Origin: Ruminococcus sp. | GTDB taxonomy: Bacteria; Bacillota; Clostridia; Oscillospirales; Ruminococcaceae | Reading direction: 5' to 3' | DNA: 57,846 nucleotides | NCBI GenBank assembly: GCA_017450925.1 | Contig: JAFSSS010000061.1 | Span: forward strand, 1-57,846 | Shown here: one piece after another, positions 18,182-31,048 of the stretch | Layout of the letters: each line of letters begins with the position of its first letter | Position numbering within the stretch: position 1 is the first letter of the stretch | Made by a program: the position numbers and the translations under genes | Notes under the pieces: generated by a model | The model's input: only the letters and a program-made list of their open reading frames with translations | Database searches by the model: none | What the model was told of the DNA's origin: nothing

Positions 18182-19549
18182 ATGTCAACAGTTTGTGCTG
18201 TTTCTACGCCGCTTGCCGAGGGCGGGCTGGCTGTTATCAGAATAAGCGGAGAGGACGCCGTCGCTGCCGCAGAGAGGATCTTCGTCCCCTTCGGCGGGAA
18301 GAGAGTGTCGGATATGCCGGGCTACACCTGCACCTACGGCCGGGTCATCGACCCCGCAGACGGCTCTGTGGTGGATGATGCAATGCTGACTGTGTTCAGA
18401 GCGCCTCACTCCTACACCGGTGAGGACACCGCCGAGATCTCCTGCCACGGAGGAGTTTATATCACCAAGCGGATACTCCGGCTATGCCTTGCGGCGGGCT
18501 GTCAGCAGGCTGACAGGGGCGAGTTCACCAAGCGCGCCTTTATAAACGGAAAGCTTTCCATGACACAGGCCGAGGCGGTAATGGATATGATCTCCGCCCG
18601 GGGAGAGCTTTCACTAAGATCCGCAAGGCTTACCCGTGAGGGGCGGCTGTTCAAGCGTATAGACGCTGTCAAGGACAGACTGGTGACCCTGCTGGGAGAG
18701 CTGGCAGCATGGGTGGATTATCCGGAGGAGGATCTTCCCGCCGTGGAGGAGGGCGCACTGAAGGCCACCCTCGCTGACGCTGCCGGAGAGCTGGAAAGGC
18801 TCGTCCGGGACTACGACTGCGGAATGGTGCTGCGCCGGGGGATAGATACCGTCATCGCCGGAAAGCCGAATGTGGGAAAATCCACGCTGATGAATATGCT
18901 GCTGGGATATGAGCGGTCTATCGTCACCGAGGCCGCCGGCACCACGCGGGATGTCATCGAGGAAACGGTGAAGCTGGGGGAGCTGGAATTAAAGCTCTCC
19001 GACACCGCCGGCATCCGGGAGACGGATGACCGCATCGAGCAGCTGGGCGTGTCGCTGGCGAAGAAGCGCCTTGACGAATGCGCTCTGATAATCGCCGTGT
19101 TCGACACCTCCTCTCCCCTTGACAGCGAGGACAGAGAGCTGCTGAATTACGTCCGCGGACTGGACAAGAGGCTGATCGTGGTGCTGAACAAGAGCGATCT
19201 GGGAAATGCCGTGGACGAAAAGGAATTTGCGGGGATAAAGACCGTGGGCATATCCGCAAAGAACGGCGAGGGGCTTGAAGCCCTCACCGCTGCGGCGTCG
19301 GAGCTTTTCGGCATCAGCAGCTATGACGCTGATACCACGATCTTTGCCAACGAGCGCCAGAAGCGCTGCGCCGAATCGGCTCTTGAAAAGCTCCGGGCTG
19401 CCCTTGCAGCAGCAGAGCTGGGCGAGACCCTCGACGCCGTCACCGTCATGACCGATGCCGCCGTTTCCGAGCTTATGGAGCTTACCGGCGAGCGTGCGAC
19501 GGAGGCAGTGGTCGAAGAGGTCTTTTCCCGGTTCTGCGTAGGCAAATAA
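18182..19549 (+). CDS. mnmE: tRNA modification GTPase MnmE (TrmE)
   Basis: A 455-residue, full-length MnmE. The N-terminal tetrahydrofolate-binding domain begins STVCAVSTPLAEGGLAVIRISG; the G domain shows GKPNVGKST (about residue 226), DTAG and NKSD; the protein ends FCVGK, the conserved C-terminal Cys motif of the family. With MnmG it installs the carboxymethylaminomethyl group at wobble U34 of certain tRNAs. mnmG is not in the window. The 3' end is only three bases from the convergent MazF-type gene, so read-through in either direction would give antisense RNA. Confidence 0.97.
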   Translation: MSTVCAVSTPLAEGGLAVIRISGEDAVAAAERIFVPFGGKRVSDMPGYTCTYGRVIDPADGSVVDDAMLTVFRAPHSYTGEDTAEISCHGGVYITKRILRLCLAAGCQQADRGEFTKRAFINGKLSMTQAEAVMDMISARGELSLRSARLTREGRLFKRIDAVKDRLVTLLGELAAWVDYPEEDLPAVEEGALKATLADAAGELERLVRDYDCGMVLRRGIDTVIAGKPNVGKSTLMNMLLGYERSIVTEAAGTTRDVIEETVKLGELELKLSDTAGIRETDDRIEQLGVSLAKKRLDECALIIAVFDTSSPLDSEDRELLNYVRGLDKRLIVVLNKSDLGNAVDEKEFAGIKTVGISAKNGEGLEALTAAASELFGISSYDADTTIFANERQKRCAESALEKLRAALAAAELGETLDAVTVMTDAAVSELMELTGERATEAVVEEVFSRFCVGK

Positions 19550-26014: not shown

Positions 26015-27781
26015 TCAATCGGGATAGTTCTCAAGGATGTCGATGCACTCGCCCACAAGCTTGTCAGCCCTCGCAAGTGCGGCGGTCACAGTCTCCTCGT
26101 CGAAGCTGACGAACACCTGCTTCGCTTGATTGATAGCATCCCTGCCGGTATCGGTCTGGTGGTGATAGATATCATCAAGCTGCTGTATCGCCTTGGCCTC
26201 AAGATCTTTGTACACATTTTTGATATCGCTTACAATATTTATCCTGATCTCGTCATAATTTTCCAGTGCGATATCTATAACATCGGTCTGCTTTTTCTTT
26301 TTCAAGATCAGACTGAAGGTGCTCATCGCAGCCGGCGGGAAGGTCTCTGACGTGCCGAAGAGCTTGACGCTCATGACCGATCTTGTGACGTTGGTATTCA
26401 TCGAGCGCATAAGCCTGCCGGTGTCGGCGGACTGTCTGCCGCCCTCGATCTCTCTAAGCCCCAGCTTGTGCGAAAGGTCGCGGGAAACGTCCTCCACAAA
26501 GCGGTCTATCCTCCGGCGGTGATGCTCGATGCAGGTGCGGTAGGCCTCTCCCACCTTTTCCATAAGGTAGGAATAGAAATACTTCTCGATGTCATCGGGG
26601 TCGTAGATATCCTGTCCGTTCTCGTCCTTGCCGCGGCATTCGAGCATACTCTGTCTAAGCTTGGCGAAGAACTCGTACATCCACTGCTCTGCCTCCTGCT
26701 GCATCTCGACGATGCTAAGGTGGAGCTTGGGCTTGGCCTCCTCAAGAGCCTGTGCCAGCTGACCGCACTGCTCGTCGAACTCGGCGGTCTTGAGGTCGAT
26801 AGCCCGCATATCCATTTCGGCCATATCCGAAAGCACACGCAGCTTCTGATAGGTCTCCGCCACCATATTTTCCACCATGGTCAGCACGCGCTTGGTGCGG
26901 ATAACGTCCTTCTGCATTATCATATCCCGCTTGAGGCTAAGCTCGAATTTGAGGAACTGTGTCTCGTAGAACTCTCTTGTTCCCTTATCGGGGGGGCGGT
27001 GACCCTCGGTCTTGCGGGCGAACTCGTCCGCGCCGCTGATGCCGTAAACTATCGCATTGGGAACTATCCTGCCGGAGATGCTCTGGAAGCGGCGCATGAT
27101 CTTATCAACGTCGGTGCGGTTGGCAAGGGCGTCCATCATATTCACCAGCACATAGAGTATTCCGAAGCGCTGGGGCTGGATGTGGCTTGCCAGATAGATC
27201 TGCTCCGTTTCGGAAAAGGGCAGCAGGCTCGAGGTGGCATACATGATCGCGTCCGCATTCACGAGATACTCTGTCACCTGCTTATCCAAGTCCTCTAAAT
27301 CGGAGAGGCCGGGGGTATCGACTATCCTAAGCTCCTTCAGTATCTCGGCATTGTCCTTGATATCAAGATAAGCTATCTTCGAGGGATAGAGCCGCATTTT
27401 GACCTTCAGCCTGTCGCGGGTGATATCCCGGAAGGTCAGCACACGTCTGTCGCCGTTTTCCAGCACAGCCTCGACCTTAGGTATCTGTCCGTAGCTGATC
27501 TCGTTTATGGTATAGGTCTCCGGCGAGACATTCGAGGGAGCAAGCTCCTTGCCCAGCAGGGCGTTGATGATCGTGCTTTTGCCCCGCTTGAACTCGCCGA
27601 GTATGACCAGCGTAAACGGCTCGGAGGAGCGCTTTTCCACCATAGCGTCCCAGCTCTTAAGCTCCTCGGTGAACTCTGCGCCCAACACGCCGGCGATCTC
27701 CTTATCCTCCATTACCATGCGCATCTTGGAGCGTATGGTCTCTATATCCTCTGCCGCGGAACGGTTTTTAACAGCATCCAT
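26015..27781 (-). CDS. Dynamin-like GTPase, soluble partner
   Basis: A 588-residue bacterial dynamin-like protein. G1 is GEFKRGKST (residues 62-70) followed by IINALLGKE; G2 Thr lies in SPETYTINE; G3 is DTPG (155-158). Long helical regions follow, with no evident transmembrane paddle, ending in a helical bundle. It is the last gene of a three-gene operon (28808-30856 dynamin-like, 27783-28763 pseudo-peptidase, this), only one base separating it from the pseudo-peptidase stop. Paired bacterial dynamins of unequal size usually work as heteromers in membrane remodelling or repair, toxin vesicle release (LeoABC) or phage tolerance (DynA). Which of these applies is not visible. Confidence 0.88.
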   Translation of the reverse strand: MDAVKNRSAAEDIETIRSKMRMVMEDKEIAGVLGAEFTEELKSWDAMVEKRSSEPFTLVILGEFKRGKSTIINALLGKELAPSNVSPETYTINEISYGQIPKVEAVLENGDRRVLTFRDITRDRLKVKMRLYPSKIAYLDIKDNAEILKELRIVDTPGLSDLEDLDKQVTEYLVNADAIMYATSSLLPFSETEQIYLASHIQPQRFGILYVLVNMMDALANRTDVDKIMRRFQSISGRIVPNAIVYGISGADEFARKTEGHRPPDKGTREFYETQFLKFELSLKRDMIMQKDVIRTKRVLTMVENMVAETYQKLRVLSDMAEMDMRAIDLKTAEFDEQCGQLAQALEEAKPKLHLSIVEMQQEAEQWMYEFFAKLRQSMLECRGKDENGQDIYDPDDIEKYFYSYLMEKVGEAYRTCIEHHRRRIDRFVEDVSRDLSHKLGLREIEGGRQSADTGRLMRSMNTNVTRSVMSVKLFGTSETFPPAAMSTFSLILKKKKQTDVIDIALENYDEIRINIVSDIKNVYKDLEAKAIQQLDDIYHHQTDTGRDAINQAKQVFVSFDEETVTAALARADKLVGECIDILENYPD

Positions 27782-27782
27782 T

Positions 27783-28763
27783 TCACTGCCCTCCCGTTCC
27801 GAGAAGCATAGAGCTTCTCACGTCACAGGTCTGCGAATTGATACGCTGTCCCTGCGGCTTGCGCTCAAGGTCTGCCCGCCAGTCGCAGAGCAGGTCGCAT
27901 TTCAGAAATTCGTTGGATGCCAGCACGCGCCTTTCCAGATCGGTGAGAGAGCTGTCGGGCTTGAGGGCGCGGGCGTTCTGCGAGGAATAGGCCTCGGAGA
28001 GGTCGAGCAGAGCCGAGGCCTTCATGCTCTCGGCCGTCCTTCCGTAGAAATCCACAAAGCCCTTGTTATACATCGAGCATACTATCTCGCAGAATCTTCC
28101 CGGCTCGTCAAGGCAGATCATAGCTGCTCTGTCGGCGGTGATATCGGCATACTTTATCCACTCGATAAGCGAGCGCACCAGCTGGCTGTTCACTGCCGGC
28201 TTGAAGGTCCGCTCTGCGGGGACATAGACGTTCTTATTGTAATTAAGGTATGTAAAGGCCCAGTTATACACGGAATGACCGTTCTGCAGCCTTCCGCACT
28301 CCGCTCCGATAAGCATATTCAGCTCATCCTCCGACAGTACCTTTACCACCCAGTCGCTAAGCACGATGCAGGGGTCGATAAGCTCGCTGTCAAAGGAATA
28401 GACCAGCGGCTTGTCAATATCCGTCCTTATGAAAACGATAGGCAGATTAAGCTCCAGCCTTTCCGCGCATTTCTTGGCGATGTTATAGATAGCGGGATAT
28501 TTCAGTGCGCCCGCCTGGTCGCATTTCATGAAAAGATGCTTGGCTTCGGCCGAGATATCGCCGGAGCTTATCGCCCGTGAGAGCCTGCCCCAGCCGCCCA
28601 GCCCGGATATCTTCTGCCTTACGGCATAATCCGACTCGAAAGCATAGTCGAGCTGTCCGCCCGAAAGGTGCTTTTCATACGAGCGTGTATATGCATCAAG
28701 ATATGAGCGAAACCCGGTGTCTATACTAAGCAGCGGATTTGCTGTCTCTAAAGACTCACTCAT
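27783..28763 (-). CDS. M48-peptidase-like protein with lost zinc site
   Basis: A 326-residue protein. Residues about 85-215 follow the M48 (HtpX/Ste24 type) core: NLPIVFIRTD, IDPCIVLSDWVVKVLSEDEL, then NMLIGAECGRLQNGH and, 45 residues on, YADITADRAAM. In active M48 enzymes these would be HExxH and ExxxD; here the motif reads Ala154-Glu155-Cys156-Gly157-Arg158 and the third ligand Glu is Asp207. Both zinc histidines are gone while the fold signature (LSEDEL, NGH, ADRAA) remains. No transmembrane helix is evident. It lies between two dynamin-like GTPases in the same operon, so a scaffold or sensor role in that complex is a reasonable guess. No other family fits better. Confidence 0.75.
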   Translation of the reverse strand: MSESLETANPLLSIDTGFRSYLDAYTRSYEKHLSGGQLDYAFESDYAVRQKISGLGGWGRLSRAISSGDISAEAKHLFMKCDQAGALKYPAIYNIAKKCAERLELNLPIVFIRTDIDKPLVYSFDSELIDPCIVLSDWVVKVLSEDELNMLIGAECGRLQNGHSVYNWAFTYLNYNKNVYVPAERTFKPAVNSQLVRSLIEWIKYADITADRAAMICLDEPGRFCEIVCSMYNKGFVDFYGRTAESMKASALLDLSEAYSSQNARALKPDSSLTDLERRVLASNEFLKCDLLCDWRADLERKPQGQRINSQTCDVRSSMLLGTGGQ

Positions 28764-28807
28764 TCTTTTTCCTCCTAAACTTGTTTTGGATAAGTATCAG
28801 CTGCTCC

Positions 28808-30856
28808 TTACGAAGCCGAGGCTGTCTCGGCAGTATCGGAAAGAGCCTTTCTGAGCGCATAGGCCTCGGAAACGATAGCGCTGGCAGCCTCGGCTATGCC
28901 GTGGAGGCGCTCCATTTCCTTTTCAGAGAGGTTGTTCTTCTCTGTTTTCAAGGCATTGAGATTGTCAAGAGTCTCCTGCGTATCCCTAAGGATGATCTCG
29001 GTCTCGCTCTCGATCTTGCTCTTCAGTCCCTCAAAGGCCGAGAACACCTGCCGTCTTACGGTCTCGGTGAAGTCGTTGTTGATGCGCATTTCATGGAACT
29101 GCTTCTTGACCTGATTTTTGAAATTGGTCTTATACTTATCTATCCTCTCGTTCACGAGGAATTTGTCAATGGTAAGCCCGGCGGCCAGTGTTCCGCCGAG
29201 GCCGGAGGCGGCCATGATGACCAGTGCTACAGGCCATGCGGGAGACAGGCTAAGCACTGTGGTGAAGAATATAGCCGAGAAGCTGGCAAGGCCGGTGCCG
29301 AAGCCCAGCAGTGCGCCCTTGAGACCCGCCTCGCGGAAGCCCAAGAAGGCGGCGCCCACGCCGAAGGAGCCGAAGGCCGCGCCTATGCCCTTATCCACGC
29401 CGCTGCCGTTTCTTGAAACTCTCTCGGAAAGGGTGAACATCTCCTGAATGCGGGAAACGGACTCGAAGAACTCGTCCTCGAAGCCCTGCAGTCTGTCAGC
29501 CTCGACGCTGATAGCTATATTGATAGCGTTCTGTATCTGCTCGCAGATAAGCGAGGCCTTGACCTCGATCGCCTCTCTGATCTTATCTGTCAGCTTGGCG
29601 GAAACGACCTTGAGCTGATCCTTCTTGAAATCGTCCGAGGACATGGGGAAGTTGTCGATGACCTCCATAGCCGCGCTCTCGATGCTGTTCCAATAGCTGT
29701 CCAGCACGGGCTTAAGGTCAGCGAAAACGTGGTTCGCGGACTCGTTGATCTTAACGAACTCCTGCCGCTTTTTGTTTCTGATATCGTCGATCTCTCCGAT
29801 AGCCTTATCATACTTCTCCATGAACTCGTCGTTAGCCATCATCAGAGCGTTTTCCTGCATTACGACTGAACGGAGTATCTCGGTGCCGGAGTTGGTGATC
29901 TTGTTGGTGAGTATCTGCAAAGCGATAACGCCGCGCTCCTTGGTGAGGATAGTTTCCAGCGCTCTTTCAAACTCCGGGAAATTGGAGTCCTGAAGCAGGC
30001 CGTTATCCTCGATCTTCTTGGCGGTAAGGGCGCGCTTGGCATAAACGCCTATTACTCTCGGGGTGCCGATCTTTCTCTTGTATGCGGCGAACTCGCGGCT
30101 GTCCTCGCCCATTACCTGCTTGGCCTTGTCCATGACATACTTGGTGATGCGGGCGCGGACGGTCTCGACTATCTTCTCCTCGTCCTCGGAGGAAAAGGTC
30201 CCGAAGCAGTTCACAACAAAGATGATACGTCCCACATCAGAGGTGAGCATCTTCTTTTCAAGGAAGTCCTTTTCAAACTGTGAGAAAGGGGAATTGGCGC
30301 TTATAACAAACACCGCCGCATCTATCTTCGGGAGAATGGACAGAGTAACGTTGGTCATCTGCTCGTCGTCGTTAAGTCCCGGGGTGTCGATGATATCCAC
30401 GTTGTTCTTGCAGAACTCGGTATCGTAATAAACGGTGGCCTCCTTGACCTTTTCGGCAGTTTCCTCGGCCTCGGCGGTCAGCTTGGTGACATAATTTTCC
30501 AGCTGGTCGATATCCACCCGCTCGCTCCTGCCGTCCTTATACTCCACCTGAACATAGGGCGTTTCGCTGTAGGTAACGCGGTTGAGCGTAGCCGTAGCGG
30601 GCAGCACGTCTGCCGGAAGCACCTCCTTGCCCAGCAGGGCGTTTATCAGCGTGGATTTACCGCGCTTGAACTCGCCCACGATAGCGACCTCAAAGTGGTC
30701 GGACTCGCTTTTCTCGATAGTTTCCCTTATGGAGCTGGCGGTATTGACCAAAGCGATTTCCTCGCTAAGCCCCAGCAGGCTCCTCAAATTTTTGTTAAGA
30801 GTCTGCACGGTATCCCGATAGCCGGCGTAGCTGCCGTAATCAAATTGCTTTTCCAT
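28808..30856 (-). CDS. Dynamin-like GTPase with membrane paddle
   Basis: A 682-residue bacterial dynamin-like protein. The start at 30856 is set by ATCGGAGG; a further in-frame ATG upstream has no ribosome site. G1 is GEFKRGKST (61-69) followed by LINALLGKE, the same as in its partner; G2 Thr in LPATATLN; G3 is DTPGLND; G4-like FVVNCFG. A long helical region leads to a pair of hydrophobic, glycine-rich segments (about residues 495-565: GAAFGSFGVGAAFLG ... SPAWPVALVIMAASGLGG) that form a membrane-inserting paddle, then a coiled-coil tail. First gene of the three-gene operon with its own promoter. Confidence 0.9.
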   Translation of the reverse strand: MEKQFDYGSYAGYRDTVQTLNKNLRSLLGLSEEIALVNTASSIRETIEKSESDHFEVAIVGEFKRGKSTLINALLGKEVLPADVLPATATLNRVTYSETPYVQVEYKDGRSERVDIDQLENYVTKLTAEAEETAEKVKEATVYYDTEFCKNNVDIIDTPGLNDDEQMTNVTLSILPKIDAAVFVISANSPFSQFEKDFLEKKMLTSDVGRIIFVVNCFGTFSSEDEEKIVETVRARITKYVMDKAKQVMGEDSREFAAYKRKIGTPRVIGVYAKRALTAKKIEDNGLLQDSNFPEFERALETILTKERGVIALQILTNKITNSGTEILRSVVMQENALMMANDEFMEKYDKAIGEIDDIRNKKRQEFVKINESANHVFADLKPVLDSYWNSIESAAMEVIDNFPMSSDDFKKDQLKVVSAKLTDKIREAIEVKASLICEQIQNAINIAISVEADRLQGFEDEFFESVSRIQEMFTLSERVSRNGSGVDKGIGAAFGSFGVGAAFLGFREAGLKGALLGFGTGLASFSAIFFTTVLSLSPAWPVALVIMAASGLGGTLAAGLTIDKFLVNERIDKYKTNFKNQVKKQFHEMRINNDFTETVRRQVFSAFEGLKSKIESETEIILRDTQETLDNLNALKTEKNNLSEKEMERLHGIAEAASAIVSEAYALRKALSDTAETASAS

Positions 30857-30930
30857 TTCAGACCTCCGATCCTGCAAAATACAGGTTAATATTTATCCGC
30901 ACCGGCCAAAGCCGGCATTACTCACCCTAA

Positions 30931-30960
30931 ATTATACCACATTCGTTATTATTTCGTCAA
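30931..30960 (-). promoter_or_regulatory. Promoter of the dynamin-like operon
   Basis: Minus strand TTGACG (30955-30960), 18-bp spacer, TATAAT (30931-30936). The leader contains a CCGGC/GCCGG hairpin (about 30902-30915). Confidence 0.75.
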
Positions 30961-31026: not shown

Positions 31027-31048
31027 GGTGTACTATGTGTAGTACACC
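31027..31048. promoter_or_regulatory. Perfect dyad between divergent promoters
   Basis: GGTGTACTA (31027-31035), TGTG, TAGTACACC (31040-31048): 9-bp arms, 4-bp centre. It lies between the dynamin-operon promoter and the ATPase promoter and could be an operator for either; further TGCATAGTGCA-type half palindromes follow it. Confidence 0.45.

Follow-up and report, generated by a model that had tools for sequence, protein, structure and literature searches.

A homologue of M48 peptidases that lacks the zinc site is kept between paired dynamin-like GTPases in Ruminococcus and its relatives

We analysed a stretch of 57,846 nucleotides from Ruminococcus sp. (contig JAFSSS010000061.1), referred to here as the window. 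It contains a unit of three genes on the minus strand, running from 30856 to 26015 in the order DLP1-MID-DLP2, i.e., two genes for dynamin-like GTPases with a gene for a catalytically dead homologue of M48-family peptidases between them. The features, in window coordinates and with protein lengths in amino acids (aa), are:

28808..30856, minus strand: DLP1, a dynamin-like GTPase of 682 aa with a hydrophobic, paddle-like stretch (Dynamin_N, E = 1.3e-33)
27783..28763, minus strand: MID, a homologue of M48-family peptidases, predicted to be dead, 326 aa (profile comparisons and ligand counts)
26015..27781, minus strand: DLP2, a dynamin-like GTPase of 588 aa without a strongly hydrophobic stretch (Dynamin_N, E = 2.2e-19)
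30931..30960, minus strand: promoter-like TTGACG-18-TATAAT ahead of DLP1, conserved in relatives (comparison of upstream regions)
30863..30867, minus strand: GGAGG, likely ribosome-binding site of DLP1 (read by eye)
28771..28776, minus strand: AGGAGG, likely ribosome-binding site of MID (read by eye)

The genes are tightly packed, with 44 bases between DLP1 and MID and a single base between MID and DLP2; this spacing, given in a preliminary description of the locus, proved exact by the coordinates of the open reading frames (ORFs). A promoter-like TTGAC[G/T/A]-TATAAT element, with at most one mismatch, was present 5' of DLP1 in 45 of the 46 regions with a recognisable start and 330 upstream bases; shuffled copies had it in 16 of 920 cases. 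Its spacer was 18 bases with a single exception. Under the same mismatch limit, the 330 bases preceding MID (0/78) or DLP2 (0/77), which are mostly coding DNA, gave no such element. The three genes are thus predicted to form a single-promoter operon, and the predicted DLP1 promoter lies near the housekeeping consensus. A perfect palindrome, GGTGTACTACACATAGTACACC, occurs upstream of the operon at 31027-31048. We rejected a conserved operator there, the window's perfect 9-base palindrome being found in none of the 45 relatives compared.

The window MID alone scored only 13.7 bits against the Pfam M48 model, under the cut-off of 20.3. When MIDs from 11 members of the window's genus were aligned and compared profile to profile, they matched eight M48 proteins from outside the operon with a probability of 98.6% (E = 1.2e-15), and three M48 proteins with an intact motif from the same operon in relatives at E = 4.1e-39 over 301 columns. 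A broader MID profile, in which two intact rows were included, found HtpX (3cqb, E = 2.2e-4) and Ste24 (4il3, E = 1.2e-3) among solved structures. At the positions of the HExxH motif and the Glu ligand, the window MID has AECGR and D, so that the M48 signature without a zinc site, noticed in the preliminary description, was borne out on both counts. Among 97 distinct MIDs of the lineage that has lost the motif (the dead lineage), the first zinc His was present in none, the second in 14 and the Glu ligand in 6, and none had two of the three canonical ligands. Other residues at or near the site were kept, i.e., the catalytic Glu in 95/97, a His (window residue 163) in 96/97 and the Arg of the ADR motif in 97/97. 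These ligand counts exclude an active enzyme with the usual site. Because the HExxH plus Glu zinc site is gone, MID is, as judged by its sequence, an M48 homologue and not a peptidase. The M48 core is common to MID and to HtpX and Ste24 by profile match, but MIDs of the dead lineage have lost the zinc ligands, and MIDs lack a strongly hydrophobic stretch (maximum 19-residue hydropathy mean of 1.64 across MIDs, and 1.07 in the window).

The motifs GEFKRGKST and INALLGKE, described earlier as shared by the two GTPases, can be read in both sequences, and both proteins pass the Pfam Dynamin_N cut-off of 27 bits (DLP1, 116.8; DLP2, 70.6). The earlier view that only the first GTPase has a hydrophobic paddle also held. 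The highest 19-residue Kyte-Doolittle mean was at least 1.82 in 37 of 37 DLP1s, with the start in every case at residues 533-564, and at most 1.66 in 38 DLP2s, where the maxima lay mostly within the GTPase domain; one DLP2, from locus L083, has a modest hydrophobic stretch (1.63) at the paddle position. GTPases of this kind are recognised by motifs G1 to G4, of which G4 is (N/T)KxD. We found G1 and G3 in both window proteins. At G4, DLP1 has NCFG in the window and in 35/35 DLP1s of the dead lineage, with TGID and NRID in two relatives whose M48 motif is intact (L083 and L193, respectively); DLP2 has NMMD in the window, and the N-x-x-D form is kept across the dead lineage. A DLP1 profile aligned with 2j68, a solved bacterial dynamin that we take to be BDLP1 of Nostoc, over positions 30-673 of 688 (E = 5.2e-41), and also matched 5owv, presumably the Cj-DLP1/Cj-DLP2 pair (E = 1.7e-17). 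A membrane-remodelling complex is plausible because the alignment with 2j68 is nearly full length.

A search of the window with PF00350 gave two weak places besides DLP1 and DLP2. One, a third Dynamin_N match, falls in an ORF of 455 aa at 18182-19549 (plus strand), which we take to be the ordinary tRNA-modification GTPase MnmE; the other was below the cut-off. A third dynamin in the window's genome was rejected. With DLP1 as the query at E = 0.001, no third dynamin was found in 16 genomes of the genus. Split genes aside, a second DLP1-like match at E = 1e-60 occurred in a single one (G066) of 297 genomes of the family.

The unit is carried by gut and rumen bacteria related to Ruminococcus. In the window's genus its presence is all-or-none, with all three genes in 11 of 16 genomes and none in the other 5. 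The family sample of 297 genomes was searched with each of the three protein families. There were 47 DLP1 matches (E = 1e-60), 49 DLP2 matches (E = 1e-30) and 52 MID matches, of which 48, spread over 17 genera, were kept; four (G303, G110, G194 and G241) were excluded as longer M48 proteins, of 459-795 aa, that had no nearby dynamin. All three families were matched in 47/297 genomes, some of which, including G226, G207 and G237, have a gene cut or split by contig ends. Two cases were incomplete: G057, on a short contig, and G296, with part of DLP2 at the contig start. Where the neighbourhood was read, DLP1 lay within 310 bases of MID in 36 of 37 loci, and DLP2 did so in all but L077 and L082.

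The arrangement was also examined in named genomes, for which the best 80 of 153 relative-encoding stretches were kept. DLP1 was upstream and DLP2 downstream of MID, on the same strand, in 73/80, the other 7 being cut by a contig end; we conclude from this that the arrangement is more than chance. Named carriers include Ruminococcus albus 8, AR67 and KH2T6, R. bicirculans 80/3, and Ruminococcus sp. YE71, FC2018 and Marseille-P6503. Outside the family, a homologous operon was found only once (G685) in samples of 394 genomes from the order, 321 from the class and 209 from the phylum, and 38 further genomes of G685's own family added none. Every family genome that matched both GTPases also matched MID (47/47). 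DLP1, MID and DLP2 are passed on together. The preliminary description had proposed a three-part system that would fail if related genomes had the GTPases without the middle gene or if the middle protein had no structural similarity to M48. The counts from the gene-neighbourhood check that it called for came out in favour of the system, and MID is an M48 relative by sequence profile. A plasmid origin was rejected, P0002 having no plasmid match that covered 80% of it and eight weaker matches that were all M48 peptidases. A phage origin was likewise rejected, because the sole match to a phage record was the whole operon in an unverified entry. That entry (MT836781.1, 'Bacteriophage sp.', from human faeces, 8.8 kb) carries DLP1-MID-DLP2 complete and is probably a misfiled bacterial contig.

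In three relatives the M48 gene at the same place in the operon has a complete zinc motif: L083 (G066) and L084 (G057), both from the window's family, and L193 (G685), from elsewhere in the class. The short L084 contig has no DLP1. In a tree of 51 M48 proteins, from which the catalytic columns were left out and for which no root was inferred, 36 dead MIDs formed one side of a branch (bootstrap 100; Shimodaira-Hasegawa-like approximate likelihood ratio test 100), and dead plus intact in-operon MIDs together formed one side of another (100/99); L100, L212 and L088 were long branches of unsure place. A quick tree with the catalytic columns included agreed on both branches. Since the dead MIDs are one clade and M48s with intact motifs occupy the same place, catalysis was probably lost once, inside an existing operon.

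The dead gene has not decayed. The median ratio of nonsynonymous to synonymous substitution rates (dN/dS) was 0.083 for MID (38 pairs), compared with 0.036 for DLP1 and 0.040 for DLP2 (40 pairs), where the pairs share species and hence are not independent. MID is therefore under purifying selection, and its low dN/dS, together with the absence of inner stops in every MID match of the family sample, excludes a decaying pseudogene. Given this selection despite the lost zinc site, MID looks like a working pseudoenzyme and not a relic. Two segments outside the M48 core have also outlived catalysis. The N-terminal motif NPxxx[IV]xxxFxxY was found in 80/80 named MIDs, and also in L083 and L193, whose zinc motif is intact (the L084 MID lacks its N-terminus), but in 0/13 M48s from outside the operon, a count that is descriptive because the motif was derived from the sequences counted. 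The conserved C-terminal tail was as similar to L083 as the core was (mean identity 0.32 vs 0.31). MID ends in GTGG or GTGGQ in 11/11 sequences of the genus alignment (window 27786-27800), and not strictly so in other genera.

Paired bacterial dynamins are known. DynA of Bacillus subtilis has two dynamin halves, like DLP1 plus DLP2, but is one fused protein, whereas DLP1 and DLP2 are separate genes; DLP1 reached 63.1 bits with the NCBIfam DynA model, far below its cut-off of 1600, and we know of no peptidase-like partner of DynA. The following comparisons draw on excerpts of the cited sources. Only the D1 half of DynA was shown to interact with membrane (PMC4159319). In Campylobacter jejuni, Cj-DLP1 and Cj-DLP2 form a 2:2 tethering complex, indicating that paired dynamins can hetero-oligomerise, and here too the genes of two different dynamins stand next to each other within an operon (PMC6104087); LeoABC of enterotoxigenic Escherichia coli has tandem dynamins with a putative membrane paddle, as here (PMC4159319). 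Unlike the window operon, neither system has an M48 homologue mentioned in these excerpts. The NCBIfam LeoA model requires 325 bits, and DLP1 and DLP2 scored 26.2 and 18.8. A functional likeness is offered by mitochondrial OMA1, a peptidase with an M48 domain that processes the dynamin-family GTPase OPA1 (PMC8027119). However, OMA1 is an active inner-membrane enzyme, whereas MID is predicted to be dead and has no strongly hydrophobic stretch; the zinc motif for control of this type is intact in L083, L084 and L193 and absent from the window's lineage.

M48 genes occur near dynamin-type genes in other arrangements too. We read 29 M48 loci outside the operon of the dead lineage (L085-L088, L100-L102, L193-L200, L212-L219, L221, L222 and L224-L227), in most of which neighbours were tested with our own dynamin queries only, at thresholds from 1e-8 to 0.01; some contigs were short (L213, 4.0 kb; L216, 3.4 kb), and for L221 and L222 the sequence covered was about 1500 bases on each side. 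Besides the homologous operon L193, an intact M48 gene lay near dynamin-type genes in L100, L194, L216 and L219. The order in L100 is M48, a 558-aa protein and two dynamins. L194 has two GTPases, the second being a dynamin by Pfam (Dynamin_N, E = 4.3e-11) but not by our own dynamin profiles. In L216 the M48 gene is followed after 16 bases by a dynamin, with a second cut by the contig end. None of four plasmid M48s was beside dynamins. In L198 (7143-9614, genome G719) there are two tandem M48-related genes, the second without HExxH, plus a weaker third. P-loop genes lie close by, and one of them, when scanned, matched the Pfam Double-GTPase 2 family; this is possibly another dead M48 linked to GTPases. 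In L088 and L101, from two genomes of the family, the M48 protein is long (about 795 aa), and its two neighbours are about 260-300 and 340 aa.

We consider it fairly probable (roughly 0.6) that the single-promoter operon makes a membrane machine of two dynamins with a dedicated pseudo-peptidase subunit. DLP1, with its hydrophobic stretch, would be the membrane-inserting partner; DLP2 would be soluble and join it in a heteromer, comparable to the halves of DynA and to Cj-DLP1/2. MID would bind the dynamins, most probably DLP2, by way of its N-terminal segment, old substrate cleft and C-terminal tail, and would control their assembly or disassembly. The ancestral enzyme probably cleaved or cleared a dynamin in the way that OMA1 cleaves OPA1; the MID of the Ruminococcus lineage would bind only and not cut. 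The likely output would be membrane tethering, fusion or repair in house-keeping life. Across 73 loci, evolutionary distances tracked best between MID and DLP2 (r = 0.93, uncorrected for rates or shared ancestry, as are the values of 0.85 for DLP1-DLP2 and 0.75 for DLP1-MID), which is why we propose that MID, as a subunit or regulator, is bound mainly to DLP2. Pseudo-metallopeptidases act through protein-protein interactions, according to an excerpt of a source in whose main text the term M48 is absent (PMC11266112).

Several points weigh against such a machine. Gene adjacency and co-inheritance are no proof of a complex. The N-terminal motif was counted in the very sequences that it came from, and the distance correlations are uncorrected. 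In comparison with L193, the tail is less conserved than the core (0.25 vs 0.29). MID and DLP2 are separated by 989 bases with an ORF of 189 aa in L077 and by 428 bases in L082. The 5.4-kb contig of G057 carries DLP2 and a MID that is missing its N-terminus, but an unrelated ORF upstream in place of DLP1; unless misassembled, it is an apparent exception to the three-gene unit. Finally, M48 genes were beside dynamin-type genes in 5 of the 29 other loci (L193, L100, L194, L216 and L219), from which no rate follows because the sample was drawn with dynamin-linked queries.

The close tie between MID and DLP2 is also what one would expect if MID were a chaperone-like factor for the assembly or stability of DLP2 alone, outside the working machine. 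The two genes overlap or nearly touch (median gap of -4 bases in 73 loci), and their proteins evolve in step, at the r of 0.93 given above. We regard this as unlikely; DLP1 was never seen without MID either (47/47 family genomes with DLP1).

An anti-phage or vesicle-release system resembling LeoABC is improbable. The best PADLOC matches to LeoA/LeoBC had E values of 8.2e-18 (DLP1) and 1.7e-11 (DLP2), and DynA of B. subtilis gives phage resistance according to an excerpt of PMC8844932. However, the LeoA match is unspecific, because LeoA models were also matched by 5/5 other dynamins scanned, and the best NCBIfam LeoA score was 26.2 of the 325 bits needed. The genes flanking the operon differ between many loci, the promoter is of house-keeping type, and none of the four window neighbours tested had a PADLOC match. 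The stress or phage role raised in the preliminary description thus found no support in this small test.

It is less probable still that MID binds metal through a changed site (Cys, His and Asp for His, His and Glu) and retains weak or altered hydrolysis. Ten of the 97 MIDs do have C-H-D at the ligand positions, and the catalytic Glu is nearly always kept, but the commonest sets are C-R-D (34) and S-R-D (23), the window has A-R-D, and not one MID has two canonical ligands. That MID is a mere passenger or chance neighbour with no joint function is scarcely credible given its co-occurrence, gene order and dN/dS: neither the 73 named loci nor the 47 family genomes show it apart from the pair, and it is under purifying selection.

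The operons of L193 and L083 are longer than that of the window; upstream of DLP1 they carry a third dynamin, of 572 or 600 aa, together with one or two zinc-ribbon proteins. We infer that the dead lineage lost these parts, rather than that the others gained them. A wider scenario, which we put forward tentatively and think somewhat more doubtful than not, is that Bacillota have an OMA1-like arrangement of their own, in which dynamin-dedicated M48s first stood with three dynamins, one or more zinc-ribbon proteins and an active enzyme, as in L083 and L193. The Ruminococcus lineage would then have stripped it down, losing the third dynamin, the zinc-ribbon part and the G4 Asp of DLP1, with the peptidase dead and the remaining pair dependent on a pseudo-peptidase.

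In the open-licence literature of PMC we found neither a link between M48 peptidases and bacterial dynamins nor a dead M48 kept strictly between paired dynamins, with intact-motif versions in relatives. The loss of the cutting site suggests that a dead enzyme has become part of a membrane machine. In mitochondria, an M48 peptidase (OMA1) is known to control a dynamin (OPA1), and the operon provides a natural before-and-after series, in which the zinc motif is intact in some lineages and lost, with the gene kept, in another. This series lets one ask what an M48 partner does for dynamins beyond cutting, a question that is testable because the carriers include cultured Ruminococcus albus and R. 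bicirculans.

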